Assembly (NCBI GenBank): GCA_947426355.1
Contig: CANEDU010000007.1
Span: 1 to 35,739, forward strand
Direction of reading: 5' to 3'
Origin: an uncultured Adlercreutzia sp.
GTDB taxonomy: Bacteria > Actinomycetota > Coriobacteriia > Coriobacteriales > Eggerthellaceae
DNA: 35,739 bases
A model generated the notes under the pieces. That model worked only from the letters and a program-made list of their open reading frames with translations, was not told where the DNA came from and ran no database searches. Below, one piece after another: positions 27,685 through 32,612 of this stretch; the first letter of the stretch is position 1, and each line of letters begins with the position of its first letter. Position numbers and translations under genes: made by a program.

Positions 27685-28548
27685 ATGGAGCTGAAGGCGC
27701 GCGTCAAGAGAGAAGAGGCCCTGGCGTTCCTCGGTCATCGCGGGCAGGAGCTGGGCGATTTGCGCGAGCGGTTGAACCGGGCAGCGACTCTTTGCGAGGC
27801 GGAGCTCGTCCCGCGGGGCGTTTACTGCGTCGTGCCTGCCTGCGCGGCGCGGGAGGTGCTGCCTGGTGAAGATATTGCCTGCCATCTGGAAGATTGCGAC
27901 GAAGTGGCGCTGATGGCAGTGACGCTCGGCGCGCAGAGCGAGATGCTTTTGCGCCGTGAACAGGCGCTGAGCGCGACGGATGGTCTGTTGGTGGACGCGT
28001 GCGCCTCGTCACTCGTTGAGCAGGCGGCCGATGCCCTGAACGCGCTTATTGTCGAAGAGGTCGCAGCGCGCGGTCTTGCCGCTACGACGCGGTTCAGTCC
28101 CGGCTATGGCGATTTGCCCCTGAGCTGCCAGCCGGCGTTTCTCGCCGCCTGTGGTGCCGATCGCGCTCTGGGCATACGGGCTACCGCGGCCAACCTGCTC
28201 GTTCCCGCTAAATCCATCACCGCTGTCATCGGGCTTTATCCTCAAGCAAGCTCCGCTCGGGAGGGCGGACTAAAGCCCACCCCCACGGAAGGAACCTGGA
28301 GCGCGGATGCTGTCGTTGGGATCCCGGCCGGCATGGCCGCCGGAGTCTCTCCCGAGGTCATCGTTGGGACTCCCTCCTTTGCCGAAGTTTCCCCCGCAGG
28401 GGGCGATTTCAGCCGCCCCTCTGCCCCGACCGCGGATGATGTTCGAAAGGACGGCGCGCCCCGCGACGCGCGCTGCTCAACTTGCCCGCTCGCTGAGACG
28501 TGCGCCCTGCGCGCCCAAGGAAGGACCTGCCATGGCAACCCCGCGTAA
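27685..28548 (+). CDS. Stand-alone methionine synthase activation (B12-reactivation) domain protein with Cys-rich tail
   Basis: 287 aa, starting 5 bp after metF and overlapping metH by 17 bp. Residues about 20-186 match the MetH activation domain, including TRFSPGYGDLPLSCQPAF, the SAM-binding segment, and LLVPAKSITAVIGLYP. In one-piece MetH this domain uses SAM and an electron donor to re-methylate oxidised cob(II)alamin; here it is separate, and the adjacent MetH lacks it. Residues about 187-262 are a low-complexity linker made by palindromic DNA units (28259-28421). The tail carries Cys264-x2-Cys267-x5-Cys273-x8-Cys282, as in related stand-alone activation proteins, and could hold a metal or Fe-S centre; that is inference. 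Confidence 0.87.
   Translation: MELKARVKREEALAFLGHRGQELGDLRERLNRAATLCEAELVPRGVYCVVPACAAREVLPGEDIACHLEDCDEVALMAVTLGAQSEMLLRREQALSATDGLLVDACASSLVEQAADALNALIVEEVAARGLAATTRFSPGYGDLPLSCQPAFLAACGADRALGIRATAANLLVPAKSITAVIGLYPQASSAREGGLKPTPTEGTWSADAVVGIPAGMAAGVSPEVIVGTPSFAEVSPAGGDFSRPSAPTADDVRKDGAPRDARCSTCPLAETCALRAQGRTCHGNPA
28259..28421. repeat. REP-like palindromic units, opposed pair, inside the activation-domain gene
   Basis: Unit A (28259-28294, GGGCGGACTAAAGCCCACC...) and unit B (28388-28421, GGGCGATTTCAGCCGCCC with flanks) are diverged reverse complements of one family. Both are in frame, encoding R-E-G-G-L-K-P-T-P-T-E-G and S-P-A-G-G-D-F-S-R. Copies occur in metH at 30964-31106. Confidence 0.7.
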
Positions 28549-31501
28549 GCTCACGGTAACCGACGCTCACCTGGCTGAGGCCCTGGCCGGCCGCGCCTAC
28601 CTGCTCTTCGACGGCGGCATGGGCACGCTCGTTCAGGCGGCGGGCCTGCATACGGTGCACGAGGTGCCCGACCTGCTGAATCTCACCCACCCCGACGAGA
28701 TTGCCGCTATCCAGCGACGCTACGTGGAAGCGGGCGCCGACTGTCTTACCACCAACACGTTCAGTGCGAATCGGCTGAAGCTCGCAGGCACGGGTGCCAC
28801 GGTGACCGAGGTGTACGCTGCAGCTGCCGCCAACGCGCGCGCGGCCGGCGCGCGCCTGGTCGCGGGCGATATTGGCCCCACGGGCTCGCTCCTCGAGCCG
28901 CTCGGTGCGCTCACGTTCGAAGAGGCCTACGATATCTTCGCAGAGCAGGCACGCGCTGCCGAGGCCGCGGGCTGCGACCTCATTGTTGTCGAAACCATGG
29001 CCGATTTGCTGGAAGCCAAAGCCGCTGTGCTTGCCGCTGCGGAAACCACCGCGCTGCCCGTCTTCGCCACGATGACGTTCGGCGAGGACGGCCGCACGTT
29101 CCTCGGCACGACGCCAGCCATTGCCGCCACGACGCTCTCGTCGCTTGGCGCTTCGGCAGTGGGCCTCAACTGCTCGCTGGGCCCCACCGAGCTGGCGCCG
29201 CTTGTGAGCGAGATGGCGCCCCATAATCGGGCTCTTATCATGGCCCAGCCCAATGCCGGATTGCCCCGTATCGAGGCGGGCGAGACGGTCTTCGATGTGG
29301 GTCCTCAGGACTTTGCCCAGGCCATGGAGGCAATTCTGGACGCCGGCGCCACGATTGTCGGCGGATGCTGCGGTACCACTCCCGACCATATCGCCGCGCT
29401 GCGCGCCGTTCTCGATCGGCGGATGAAGGTGTCCGCCGCGGAAGAAGCGAAAGAATCTCACGCAGGCACCCCCCGCGCTCCCCATGCGCGCTATCGCCCC
29501 GCTTTTACGGTGACCTCTGCCCAGCAGATGGTGGCGCTGCCGAGCGGCGAGGCGCGTATCGCGGTCATTGGCGAGCGCATCAACCCTACGGGGAAGAAGA
29601 AGCTGAAGGCCGCTCTGCAGGCCGGCGATGTGGACTATCTTGTAGCCGAGGCGGCCGCCCAGCAGCGAGCCGGCGCCGATATTCTAGATGTGAACGTCGG
29701 CGTGCCCGGTCTTGATGAGTCGGCGCTGCTTTCCCAGGTCACGCGCACGCTGCAGAGCACGGTGCCCCTGCCTTTGCAGTTGGATTCTTCCGACCCAGCA
29801 GCCATCGAGGCCGCCGCTCGCGCCTATGCGGGCCGGCCCATGGTGAACTCCGTGAACGGCAAAGCCGACAACCTTGCCGCCGTGTTGCCTGTGGTGGCGC
29901 GCTATGGCTGCACGGTCGTCGGCCTCACCTTGGACGAGGGCGGCATTCCCCCCACGGCTGAGGAGCGCCTGGCCATCGCTGAGCGCATCGTGGATGCCGC
30001 CGAAGCGCACGGCATTCCCCGCGAAGATGTGGCCATCGACTGCCTCGTTATGGCCGCTGCTACCAACCAGCGCGAGGTGCGCGAGATTCTGCGCGCCGTC
30101 GCACTGGTGAAGGAGCGCCTCGGCGTGCGCACGGTGCTCGGCGTGTCGAACGTGAGCTTCGGTCTGCCGGCGCGTCCGCTTGTGAACAGCACGTTTCTTG
30201 CTGCCGCCTTCGGCGCCGGTCTCGATATGCCCATTTTGAACCCGCTGAATGCCCGGTATCGCGACACGGTTGCCACCTTCCGCATCCTCAACGGCCAAGA
30301 CGTGGGCTGTCGCGCCTTTTTGGAAGACTGTGCCAATGCCCAGGACCCCTACGAAATCGCTGCTAGCGGAGCTTGTGTTGGCGGCGCCCCCATGGGCGGA
30401 AGCGCCGCCGCTCCCGGAAAAGTGGGCGAAAACGCCGCCGCTCCCGGGCAAACGGGCGGAAGCGTCGCCGTTCCCGGAAAAGTGGGCGAAAACGCCGCCG
30501 CTCCCGGGCAAACGGGCGGAAGCGCCGCCGTTCCCGGGCGCGTGGGCGGAAACGCCGCCGCTCCCGGACAAGCGCGTGGAAACGTGGGCGGAAACGCCGC
30601 CGTTCCCGGACAAATGGGCGGAAACGCCGACGCTTCCGGCCCCCTGGGCGAAGGCCTGGTCGCCTGCCCCATCCCGATTAGCGCTGCTTTCGCCGCCATT
30701 CCAGAGACGGTCGCCGCGCTGGCCGAATATGTGCTGGAAGGTCGCGGCGCGCCGGTGGCAGCTACGACTGAGGCGCTGCTGGCAACCTACGACGGGCTGG
30801 CCATCATCAACGATATCTTCGTCCCCATTCTCGATGTTGTTGGACAGAAATACGACGACGGGACGTTCTTCTTGCCCCAGCTCATGGCTTCGGCCGAAGC
30901 GGTGAAAGCGGGCTTCGACCTCATTCGCGACCACAATGCCGCAGCCTCTGCGTCTCCCGCGACCTCTCCTGCAGGGGGCGACTTCAGTCGCGCCTCGTCC
31001 TCGGGTAAGGGTGCCGCCTGGGAGGGCGAGCTACCGTCAGCCCCTACAGAGGGAAGCGCCGTTTCGATGGGCTCTTCCTCCGCAGGCGGCGATTCCGGTC
31101 GCCCTTCGCGCTCCAGTGCGGGCGAACGCTCCATCATCGTGGCGACGGTGCAGGGCGATATCCACGACATCGGCAAGAATATCGTGAAGATGCTCCTGGA
31201 AAACTACGGCTTTTCCGTTGTTGACCTGGGGCGCGACGTTGCCCCCGAGGCGGTCGTCGATGCCGCTCGCGAAAGTGGCGCGCGTCTCATTGGACTCTCG
31301 GCGCTCATGACCACCACGGTCGGCGCCATGGAGCGCACGATTAAGCTCGTGCATGAGCAGCTGCCCGGCGTGGCCGTCATGGTGGGTGGTGCTGTGATTA
31401 CCCAGGAGTTCGCCGACCAAATCAACGCCGATTACTACGCCAAGGACGCCGCCGCCTCCACCCGCATCGCCTCTGCCTTCTTCGAAGGCGATCCCTCCTG
31501 A
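28532..31501 (+). CDS. metH: Cobalamin-dependent methionine synthase lacking the activation domain
   Basis: 989 aa from ATG 28532 (AAGGAAGG upstream). Domains: homocysteine-binding barrel (about 20-300) with Zn ligands Cys214 (GLNCSLGP), Cys279 and Cys280 (GGCCGTTPDH); pterin-binding barrel (about 340-605, GERINPTGKKKLK, DVNVG, QLDSSDP); cobalamin cap (about 715-802); cobalamin Rossmann domain (about 867-985) with D876-x-H878-x-x-G881 supplying the lower axial His. The C-terminal activation domain is absent and encoded by the preceding gene. Two long inserts are unusual: residues about 612-708, a 10-residue Gly/Ala/Pro repeat between pterin and cap domains, and about 803-866, a Ser/Gly stretch between cap and Rossmann domains. 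Both fall at domain boundaries, so catalysis is probably preserved. Confidence 0.95.
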   Translation: MATPRKLTVTDAHLAEALAGRAYLLFDGGMGTLVQAAGLHTVHEVPDLLNLTHPDEIAAIQRRYVEAGADCLTTNTFSANRLKLAGTGATVTEVYAAAAANARAAGARLVAGDIGPTGSLLEPLGALTFEEAYDIFAEQARAAEAAGCDLIVVETMADLLEAKAAVLAAAETTALPVFATMTFGEDGRTFLGTTPAIAATTLSSLGASAVGLNCSLGPTELAPLVSEMAPHNRALIMAQPNAGLPRIEAGETVFDVGPQDFAQAMEAILDAGATIVGGCCGTTPDHIAALRAVLDRRMKVSAAEEAKESHAGTPRAPHARYRPAFTVTSAQQMVALPSGEARIAVIGERINPTGKKKLKAALQAGDVDYLVAEAAAQQRAGADILDVNVGVPGLDESALLSQVTRTLQSTVPLPLQLDSSDPAAIEAAARAYAGRPMVNSVNGKADNLAAVLPVVARYGCTVVGLTLDEGGIPPTAEERLAIAERIVDAAEAHGIPREDVAIDCLVMAAATNQREVREILRAVALVKERLGVRTVLGVSNVSFGLPARPLVNSTFLAAAFGAGLDMPILNPLNARYRDTVATFRILNGQDVGCRAFLEDCANAQDPYEIAASGACVGGAPMGGSAAAPGKVGENAAAPGQTGGSVAVPGKVGENAAAPGQTGGSAAVPGRVGGNAAAPGQARGNVGGNAAVPGQMGGNADASGPLGEGLVACPIPISAAFAAIPETVAALAEYVLEGRGAPVAATTEALLATYDGLAIINDIFVPILDVVGQKYDDGTFFLPQLMASAEAVKAGFDLIRDHNAAASASPATSPAGGDFSRASSSGKGAAWEGELPSAPTEGSAVSMGSSSAGGDSGRPSRSSAGERSIIVATVQGDIHDIGKNIVKMLLENYGFSVVDLGRDVAPEAVVDAARESGARLIGLSALMTTTVGAMERTIKLVHEQLPGVAVMVGGAVITQEFADQINADYYAKDAAASTRIASAFFEGDPS
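30393..30655 (+). repeat. 30-bp tandem repeat array within metH
   Basis: About eight units of consensus G(T)GGGCGGAA-CGCCGCCG-TCCCGG-AAA encode a ten-residue G-G-N/S-A-A-A/V-P-G-x-V/T motif. Some adjacent 60-bp blocks are identical, indicating recent duplication. Confidence 0.85.
30964..31106. repeat. REP-like palindromic units, B-A-B, inside metH
   Basis: Unit B at 30964-30996 (GGGCGACTTCAGTCGCGC core), unit A at about 31019-31057 (GGGCGAGCTACCGTCAGCCC core), unit B at 31073-31106 (GGCGATTCCGGTCGCC core). The B cores are themselves palindromic. Encoded peptides (SPAGGDFSR, W-E-G-E-L-P-S-A-P-T-E-G, SAGGDSGR) echo those of the activation-domain gene. Confidence 0.7.
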
Positions 31502-31571
31502 CGCAAGAACACCCTCGTCGCCCGACGCAGCGAGGCACGAGGTACACGGCCGTGCAGGACGCGGCACAGGC

Positions 31572-31616
31572 GGCGTTGCGCGGCATGGCGTTGCGCGGCA
31601 TGGCGTTGCGCGGCAT
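31572..31616 (+). repeat. 15-bp tandem repeat, three copies
   Basis: GGCGTTGCGCGGCAT occurs three times in perfect tandem (31572, 31587, 31602). Degenerate GCGCGGCAT copies follow further downstream, for example near 31770 and 31790. Confidence 0.92.
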
Positions 31617-31837
31617 GGCACGGCGCGGAGCGGCACCGTGCGGGATGGGGCATGCGAGACGTTGCGCGACACGGAACGAGGAGCCATGCGAGTTGGCACG
31701 CGGCGCGGTGCGAGGCACGAGATGGGAGCCATGCGGGACGCCACGTGGCACGGAATCACCACGCTGCGCGGCATCGCCTGACACTGCGCGGCATGTCAGG
31801 GAGAGCCTGGGCGCGAGGAACTTGGCCAAATATGCGG

Positions 31838-31938
31838 GATATGGACACTCCGAGCAGCCCTCTTGGCTCGCAAGAGCCAAGAGGGCCCAGGTCAGATTTT
31901 CCGATTGGCGCAAAACGCGGAACAGAAGTGTCCATATC
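31838..31938. repeat. 11-bp inverted repeat enclosing a 13-bp GNRA hairpin
   Basis: GATATGGACAC (31838-31848) pairs with GTGTCCATATC (31928-31938). Inside, GCCCTCTTGGCTC (31857-31869), loop GCAA, GAGCCAAGAGGGC (31874-31886) make a perfect 13-bp stem with a stable tetraloop. No strong T-run follows, so a structured RNA or distal terminator is possible. Confidence 0.85.
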
Positions 31939-32022
31939 GGCCGTTTCTGGCCGATTTCCCCCGGCGCGCGTCCATATCGGCCGTTTCTGGCCGATTTCCC
32001 CCGGCGCGCGTCCATATCGGCC
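31930..32022 (+). repeat. 40-bp tandem repeat, 2.3 copies
   Basis: Two identical 40-bp units start at 31930 and 31970 (GTCCATATCGGCC..., ending CCCCCGGCGCGC), with a partial third at 32010-32022. Each full unit holds the dyad ATCGGCC-GTTTCT-GGCCGAT. There are no spacers, so this is not a CRISPR array. Confidence 0.93.
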
Positions 32023-32150
32023 AAATTTGCCCAGTTTCGCCGCGCGTATGTCAAATATCGGGGCTTTGGACACGACGGAGGAGCGAAGCGCCCCGACGCG
32101 CTATCATGGAAGCATTCGCAACCCGCATTGATCGGAGAAAAGGAGCCTCC

Positions 32151-32468
32151 ATGGGGAAGAAGGACGTTGAAGCCCTCGAGATCACCATCGACGAGCTGCC
32201 CACTTACCTGCACACGAACCACTCCATTTATATGGAAGTGGCCGACGGGCTGTACTACCTCACTGACGTGAACGACCGCTACTGGCGCGCCCAGGACACC
32301 AACCGGTTCAACGAGAAGGGCCACTATGTTGATGCAAGCCCGCTCGTCCCCACCATCGCTGAGTTTCTCGATCTGCCCTTCCATGAGGGCAAATCCGTGA
32401 ATGACCTGTTTGCCGAAGCCACCTTCTATGCTTCCGGCGACGGCAAGGACATGCCCGAAAATTTCTAG
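32151..32468 (+). CDS. Small acidic hypothetical protein
   Basis: 105 aa from ATG 32151, preceded by AAAAGGAG. The protein is soluble and acidic with no signal, span or Cys. It reads like a compact alpha/beta fold: ALEITIDELPTYLH, SIYMEVADGLYYLTDVND, YWRAQDTNRFNEKGHYVD, then helical IAEFLDLPFHEGKSVNDLF. Codon use matches the neighbours, which supports a real gene. No family is recognised. It sits between a repeat locus and the Mrp-type ATPase gene, 144 bp apart with a hairpin and promoter between, so it is probably a separate transcript. The aromatic-rich centre suggests ligand or protein binding, but this is conjecture. Confidence 0.75.
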   Translation: MGKKDVEALEITIDELPTYLHTNHSIYMEVADGLYYLTDVNDRYWRAQDTNRFNEKGHYVDASPLVPTIAEFLDLPFHEGKSVNDLFAEATFYASGDGKDMPENF

Positions 32469-32499
32469 CCCTCGCGATGCTCTCGCTGAAACAGGAAGA

Positions 32500-32532
32500 C
32501 AGTGCCGCGCCGAGCCATCGGTTGCGGCACTG
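32500..32532 (+). terminator. Hairpin after the small hypothetical gene
   Basis: CAGTGCCGC (32500-32508) pairs with GCGGCACTG (32524-32532) across 15 nt. The following TTGCGTTGTG is only moderately T-rich, so termination may be weak. Confidence 0.45.
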
Positions 32533-32549
32533 TTGCGTTGTGCTATGAT
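32522..32549 (+). promoter_or_regulatory. Candidate promoter of the Mrp-type ATPase gene
   Basis: TTGCGG (32522-32527), 16-bp spacer, TATGAT (32544-32549). The -35 overlaps the right arm of the preceding hairpin. Confidence 0.45.
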
Positions 32550-32612
32550 GCCCAGCGAACTATTCTCGAGCGGCCATAAAGCTGCTGACCAGTGACAAGA
32601 AAGAAGGAAATC

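Follow-up and report, generated by a model that had tools for sequence, protein, structure and literature searches.

What fills the intergenic DNA between a metH-like gene and a gene for a 105-amino-acid protein in an uncultured Adlercreutzia sp., where inverted words, a hairpin, and tandem repeats lie close together? The locus belongs to a stretch of 35,739 nucleotides (the window), which is contig C7 of a 2.09-Mb assembly with 79.6% completeness (G000). A sequence-only reading had described positions 31838 to 32080 as a nested hairpin with 40-bp repeats that could encode a structured RNA or bind a protein at phased dyads. That observation is real, yet it forms part of a larger, dispersed set of arrays.

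Five degenerate 22-bp sites make up the window array

The unit that occurs five times in the array is GTCCAWATCGSSNNTATTTGSC, a degenerate site of 22 bp, and the array spans 31825 to 32071. The features on which the sequence-only reading was built were all found, including GATATGGACAC at 31838-31848, GTGTCCATATC at 31928-31938, and the ATCGGCC/GGCCGAT dyads, but the left edge of the element lies at 31825 and not at 31838. Likewise, the words GTCCATATCGGCC, GGACAC, and AAATATCGGGG, which had been listed separately, are all present, but once the copies are set in register each proves to be a piece of one 22-bp unit. Site 1 (31825-31846) lies on the minus strand, where it reads GTCCATATCCCGCATATTTGGC with no mismatches to our search pattern GTCCAWANCSSSNNNATTTGSC and a matrix score of 33.7. 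Site 2 (31930-31951, plus strand; GTCCATATCGGCCGTTTCTGGC; two mismatches, score of 23.9) starts 105 bp, or 10 helical turns, from site 1, and an identical site 3 (31970-31991, plus strand) follows 40 bp beyond it. The 40-bp tandem repeat noted earlier was confirmed as two identical units over 31930-32009 and a third unit at 68%; it represents two plus-strand sites 40 bp apart that share the same filler, site 3 belonging to the second unit. The remaining sites form an inward-facing 40-bp pair, with site 4 (32010-32031, plus strand; GTCCATATCGGCCAAATTTGCC; no mismatches, score of 31.4) as its left half and site 5 (32050-32071, minus strand; GTCCAAAGCCCCGATATTTGAC; one mismatch, score of 27.6) as its right half. 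Between sites 1 and 2 lies a center motif on the minus strand (31881-31897; ATCTGACCTGGGCCCTC), 34 bp from site 1 and 32 bp from site 2.

The reported hairpin with a 13-bp stem and a GCAA loop was verified at 31857-31886, where it overlaps the first bases of the center motif. This hairpin is confined to the window array and absent from the other arrays, and its stem resembles a terminator hairpin in another genome of the order (L029). From this resemblance, the hairpin is probably a decayed terminator, or a product of chance. As the sequence-only reading had stated, the array has no terminator-type T-run, and we found neither a promoter nor a terminator for it. The same reading had seen no gene at the locus; open reading frames do overlap the array, and none of them has a protein match.

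Beside the array is a GC-rich, low-complexity stretch (31530-31815) made up of degenerate repeats that are short, and one-sided stretches of this kind likewise lie beside arrays C2, C16, C24, and C185. Thirty-one base pairs past the array end, upstream of the 105-amino-acid gene (start at 32151), is a -10-like hexamer, TATCAT (32102-32107, plus strand), which sequence comparison showed to be conserved as TATCAT/TATTAT in sister genomes and at which a consensus promoter scan made no call. The metH-like gene (28307-31501) contains a 60-bp tandem repeat in three copies at 30394-30571.

The site recurs in apparently intergenic clusters across the genome

The genome-wide search that the sequence-only reading had advised did find copies elsewhere. 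With GTCCAWANCSSSNNNATTTGSC and up to two mismatches allowed, G000 yielded 44 matches in contrast to none for the reversed pattern used as a control, these counts being those of pattern searches. On array-bearing contigs, a weight matrix gave the sites scores of 13 to 36 and everything else scores of about 10 or less. Because of this gap and the empty control, we conclude that the site is enriched far beyond chance. The 44 matches group into 14 clusters, with up to eight sites in an array. These clusters are apparently intergenic, falling between called genes apart from unverified open reading frames, where the surrounding genes are open reading frame and GC-frame calls partly checked by Pfam. 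The logo of 42 G000 sites reads T-GTCCAWATCGSSNNTATTTGSC, with G1, T2, C3, C4, C9, T19, G20, and C22 invariant, and the 22-bp site is quasi-palindromic, with a left box GTCCAWA and a right box TATTTGSC.

Contig C74 carries two 107-bp elements that are 97% identical and 6.5 kb apart (L081:980-1086 and L081:7518-7624). In each, copies of the site form the terminal repeats and the center is palindromic; together they enclose oxidoreductase, cytochrome, and LuxR genes, and they are the only sign of recent copying. A solitary element before a gene start (L105:1430-1590; contig C2 near 15105) has another left word, GTGCGCCTCAAATCG, and keeps the same right half and the palindromic center.

A second species keeps the layout with a drifted site

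We searched for the inward-pair pattern across 140 genomes of the family, and the only match besides G000 was a weak one in a genome of the same genus (G003). The G003 array at that place carries a related site, TACCAAACCCCYNNTTTTTGMC, and a search of G003 with TACCAAACCCCYNNTTTTTGMC recovered 42 sites in nine clusters, along with stray matches and no control matches. The G000 and G003 logos share CCAWA at positions 3 to 7, C9, and the TNTTTGNC right half, giving a core common to both sets of sites of CCAWA-N9-TTTGNC. An unrelated left word in each species had been considered and was dropped since both logos share CCAWA at positions 3 to 7. Judged from the logos, the G003 site is the same kind of site, drifted in its left part, and the G003 arrays keep the layout seen in G000. 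In G007, G113, G114, G127, and other family members, arrays combine a related right half with a different left part. An exact inward-pair scan of GTDB genomes returned no match outside G000.

The array loci proved to be lineage-specific when G000, G003, and the sister genomes were compared. The border between metH and the 105-amino-acid gene measures about 100 bp in the sister genomes G001 and G008 versus about 650 bp in G000, and the extra 550 bp or so consists of the array and the GC-rich low-complexity stretch, both absent from G001 and G008. The intergenic DNA of these genomes is too diverged to place insertion edges for a target-site duplication check. Array neighborhoods of G000 and G003 showed no synteny at the arrays.

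Some matches in other genomes were set aside. Matches to the center palindrome in Brevibacterium, Thermomonospora, Aromatoleum, and other genera were not used, being near the number expected by chance for the pattern or a single inherited locus. Several Brevibacterium genomes carry TCTGACCTGG-N16-CCAGGTCAGA at a single conserved position upstream of a gene resembling a glycosyltransferase (L122:1657-1692, L126:3045-3080, L137:4884-4919, and others); this sequence may be unrelated to the arrays. A 26-bp TCTGACC match beside tmRNA in G005 and G006 was discarded as terminator-like.

Spacing follows the helical repeat around an oriented center motif

Of the 27 inward pairs in the two species together (a plus-strand site and then a minus-strand site, start to start), 24 were spaced at 40 bp, one at 39 bp, and two at 81 bp. 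Outward pairs (minus and then plus) were spaced at 32, 42, 52, 53, 74 (eight times), 105 (five times), 106, 115 (twice), and 126 bp (twice). When periods from 8 to 14 bp were scanned on the distinct values, the best was 10.50 bp (R = 0.96), a fit equalled by none of 20,000 random spacing sets in a test on few distinct values that are partly related by descent. Outward spacings of 42, 42, 157, and 177 bp in G113, G007, and G127, which were not used in fitting, also lie near multiples of 10.5 bp. Neighbors in the same orientation (22, 23, 31, 33, 38, 40, 41, 52, 62, and 116 bp) were loosely periodic. Thus, outward pairs show the helical-repeat spacing of a phased protein-binding array, and this 10.50-bp period, along with the genome-wide copies, strongly supports the earlier suggestion of protein binding at phased dyads.

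An oriented center motif, with the consensus TTCTGACCTGGGGTTTT, sits between outward sites, usually once per array. The distance from its TTCT end to the nearest site was 32 bp in six of seven G000 arrays and 43 bp in the seventh; for G003, 10 of 11 distances were 23 bp and the remaining one was 34 bp, so that the exceptional offset is 11 bp longer in both species. On the far side, the distance was 34 or 44 bp in G000 and 11, 12, 43, or 44 bp in G003. These counts exclude array C4, which is without a clear center. A defined protein-DNA assembly requires a register, fixed offsets, and polarity of this kind, which neutral repeat decay would not keep. We consider it fairly probable that each locus serves a putative oligomerizing DNA-binding protein as a polar, lineage-specific array of binding sites in helical phase, and that this protein would loop the DNA across the center.

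The sites probably act as double-stranded DNA

The other proposal of the sequence-only reading, a structured noncoding RNA encoded at each array, fared poorly. Hairpins are possible from the inward pairs, and the window array folds better than its shuffles (z = -5.3), a strong fold that inverted repeats and a local hairpin would give anyway; for a single site, the folding energy was 0 to -2.8 kcal/mol. The arms of inward pairs in G000 matched no better than re-dealt arms (P = 0.30), arguing against covariation there. In G003 the arms did match better than chance (P = 0.003), and this similarity suggests covariation but also fits either hairpins or repeat copying. A search of Rfam 15 over 31400-32600 gave no match at an E value of ≤1, and the other arrays tested likewise had no Rfam match. 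No promoter or terminator was found either, and the 10.50-bp outward period is that of B-DNA and is not needed by an RNA. Filler within inward pairs was 30% identical between G000 arrays (25% when shuffled) versus 75% for the sites, and the corresponding values in G003 were 39% and 78%. Because the filler is barely conserved and the G000 arms do not covary, a complex on double-stranded DNA fits better than an RNA, and we regard an encoded RNA as highly improbable. On balance, the sites probably act as double-stranded units.

We also observed a conserved repeat of about 115 bp that does resemble a structured RNA, at L079:9075-9215 (contig C24, G000) and, in G003, at L190:9103-9240, L188:6800-6945 (minus strand), and L183:8520-8660. 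It has 41 consensus pairs, seven of them with compensatory changes in the four sequences, and no Rfam match. Array C170 is followed, after about 190 bp, by an FMN riboswitch on its downstream side (L084:2517-2682, contig C170), which is probably unrelated.

Neighboring genes share no function, and mobility would explain part of the pattern

The genes beside the arrays have no common function or pathway, and no gene common to the array neighborhoods was found as a candidate binding partner. Neighboring genes often converge on an array, with arrays C3 and C24 in G000 and C1, C9, C22, C26, and C38 in G003 lying between 3' ends. This arrangement bears on whether the sites are operators of a regulator controlling the adjacent genes, as the position of the last window site upstream of the conserved TATCAT hexamer and that of array C25 immediately before a gene for pyrroline-5-carboxylate reductase would allow. 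The many arrays between 3' ends speak against operators, as does the regulon, which would have to differ between sister species. Because the neighbors share no function, control of particular genes is less likely, and we judge an operator role to be improbable. Unrelated neighbors and frequent placement between converging genes instead point to a chromosome-level or selfish role.

The arrays could also be non-autonomous mobile repeats, similar to MITEs or REPINs: the sites would be ends for a transposase or recombinase acting in trans, the arrays would be composite or tandem insertions, and the family would have been amplified in each species. Lineage-specific placement is better explained by such repeats than by a binding array, and the two nearly identical copies on contig C74, the unrelated neighbor genes, and the in-pair similarity in G003 are consistent with them. 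So are the inverted doublets with a fixed distance and variable filler, as in REPINs (PMC3116915). In contrast, recent copies would share filler too, and the unshared filler is better explained by a binding array. Spacing changes by whole turns and fixed center offsets also would not be kept under drift after insertion. Whole-length likeness with terminal inverted repeats, as in MITEs, was limited to the C74 pair, and the other arrays share sites only. REPs linked to a RAYT were rejected after a search for the Y1 transposase/RAYT family (PF01797) found no match in the approximately 80%-complete G000 and positive controls were detected. Mobile-element ends around a gene were rejected as well, since the sites form short clusters and none bracket a transposase. 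We consider mobile repeats a rather unlikely explanation. They are compatible with a binding array, whose origin could lie in the complexes formed at the ends of an element.

Other origins were also rejected. Neither the array nor the pair pattern had a match in phage, plasmid, IMG/VR, or GTDB sequences, which speaks against a phage, plasmid, or viral origin. A CRISPR array, with identical direct repeats and unique spacers of constant length, does not fit sites that vary in sequence, face both ways, and have irregular spacing.

Relation to described systems

REPINs and BIMEs are REP doublets, inverted at a fixed distance with variable filler (PMC3116915, PMC2817692, PMC3733652). The arrays resemble them in this arrangement of short sites, in being extragenic and clustered, and in having a species-specific sequence, which makes REPINs and BIMEs the nearest described kind by layout. 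Unlike them, the arrays have no RAYT that we could find, logos with neither a GTAG nor a CGTC tag, single sites that barely fold, and about 14 loci with 44 matches as opposed to hundreds of copies (REP copy number is usually above 100). The arrays also have a separate, oriented center motif with helical-turn spacing across it. Because a RAYT, a tag, hairpin folding of single sites, and a high copy number were all looked for and found lacking, we do not file the arrays as REPINs or BIMEs.

Three other systems share some traits with the arrays. Complex transposon ends, such as those bound by TnsB of Tn7 and MuA of phage Mu, are arrays of transposase sites of about 22 bp. The array sites are similarly bipartite, asymmetric, about 22 bp long, in several orientations, and in some cases nearly abutting, but the arrays bracket neither a transposase nor cargo. 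The parS of P1-type plasmids has two box types around a bend site, in helical register, with species specificity in part of the site. Box types around a center, helical register, and a partly species-specific site recur here, but at about 14 chromosomal places, with different sequences and no parABS operon seen beside the arrays. Looping repressors of the LacI and AraC types use operator pairs whole helical turns apart, as are site pairs here; unlike those operators, the arrays are not tied to promoters, have up to eight sites, and lie beside unrelated neighbors.

A model for the arrays and its significance

In the model that we favor, a putative sequence-specific, oligomerizing protein would occupy the sites as double-stranded DNA, with inward pairs at their constant 40 bp forming a fixed unit. 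Looping would join units that flank the center, whole helical turns apart, in one polar nucleoprotein complex; the center itself would carry a second protein or a bend. The arm match in G003, the loose periodicity of same-orientation neighbors, the lineage-specific loci, the 97% identity of the C74 pair, and the absence of a clear center from C4 all count against a binding array. The purpose would most likely be at the level of the chromosome, serving its architecture or insulating gene borders; alternatively, mobile-element ends would be the source from which the complex descends.

Sequence alone rarely reveals a 10.5-bp register, fixed offsets, and polarity in intergenic DNA that is otherwise not conserved. 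Together they imply a multiprotein DNA complex, for which we found no description in Eggerthellaceae in the literature searched; nor did we find such arrays described in Coriobacteriia, although a description may exist beyond that literature. Concrete baits for finding the protein are available in the 22-bp site, the 40-bp pair, and the center. Tentatively, the arrays may belong to an undescribed nucleoprotein system of Eggerthellaceae, in which an oligomeric protein with a species-drifting site would build polar, phased, center-marked complexes at no fewer than a dozen intergenic points. These complexes would organize the chromosome or insulate the borders of genes, and the protein would change in step with its sites. 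Sister species that share the layout but differ in the site offer a natural experiment in how a DNA-binding protein and its sites across a genome change together.
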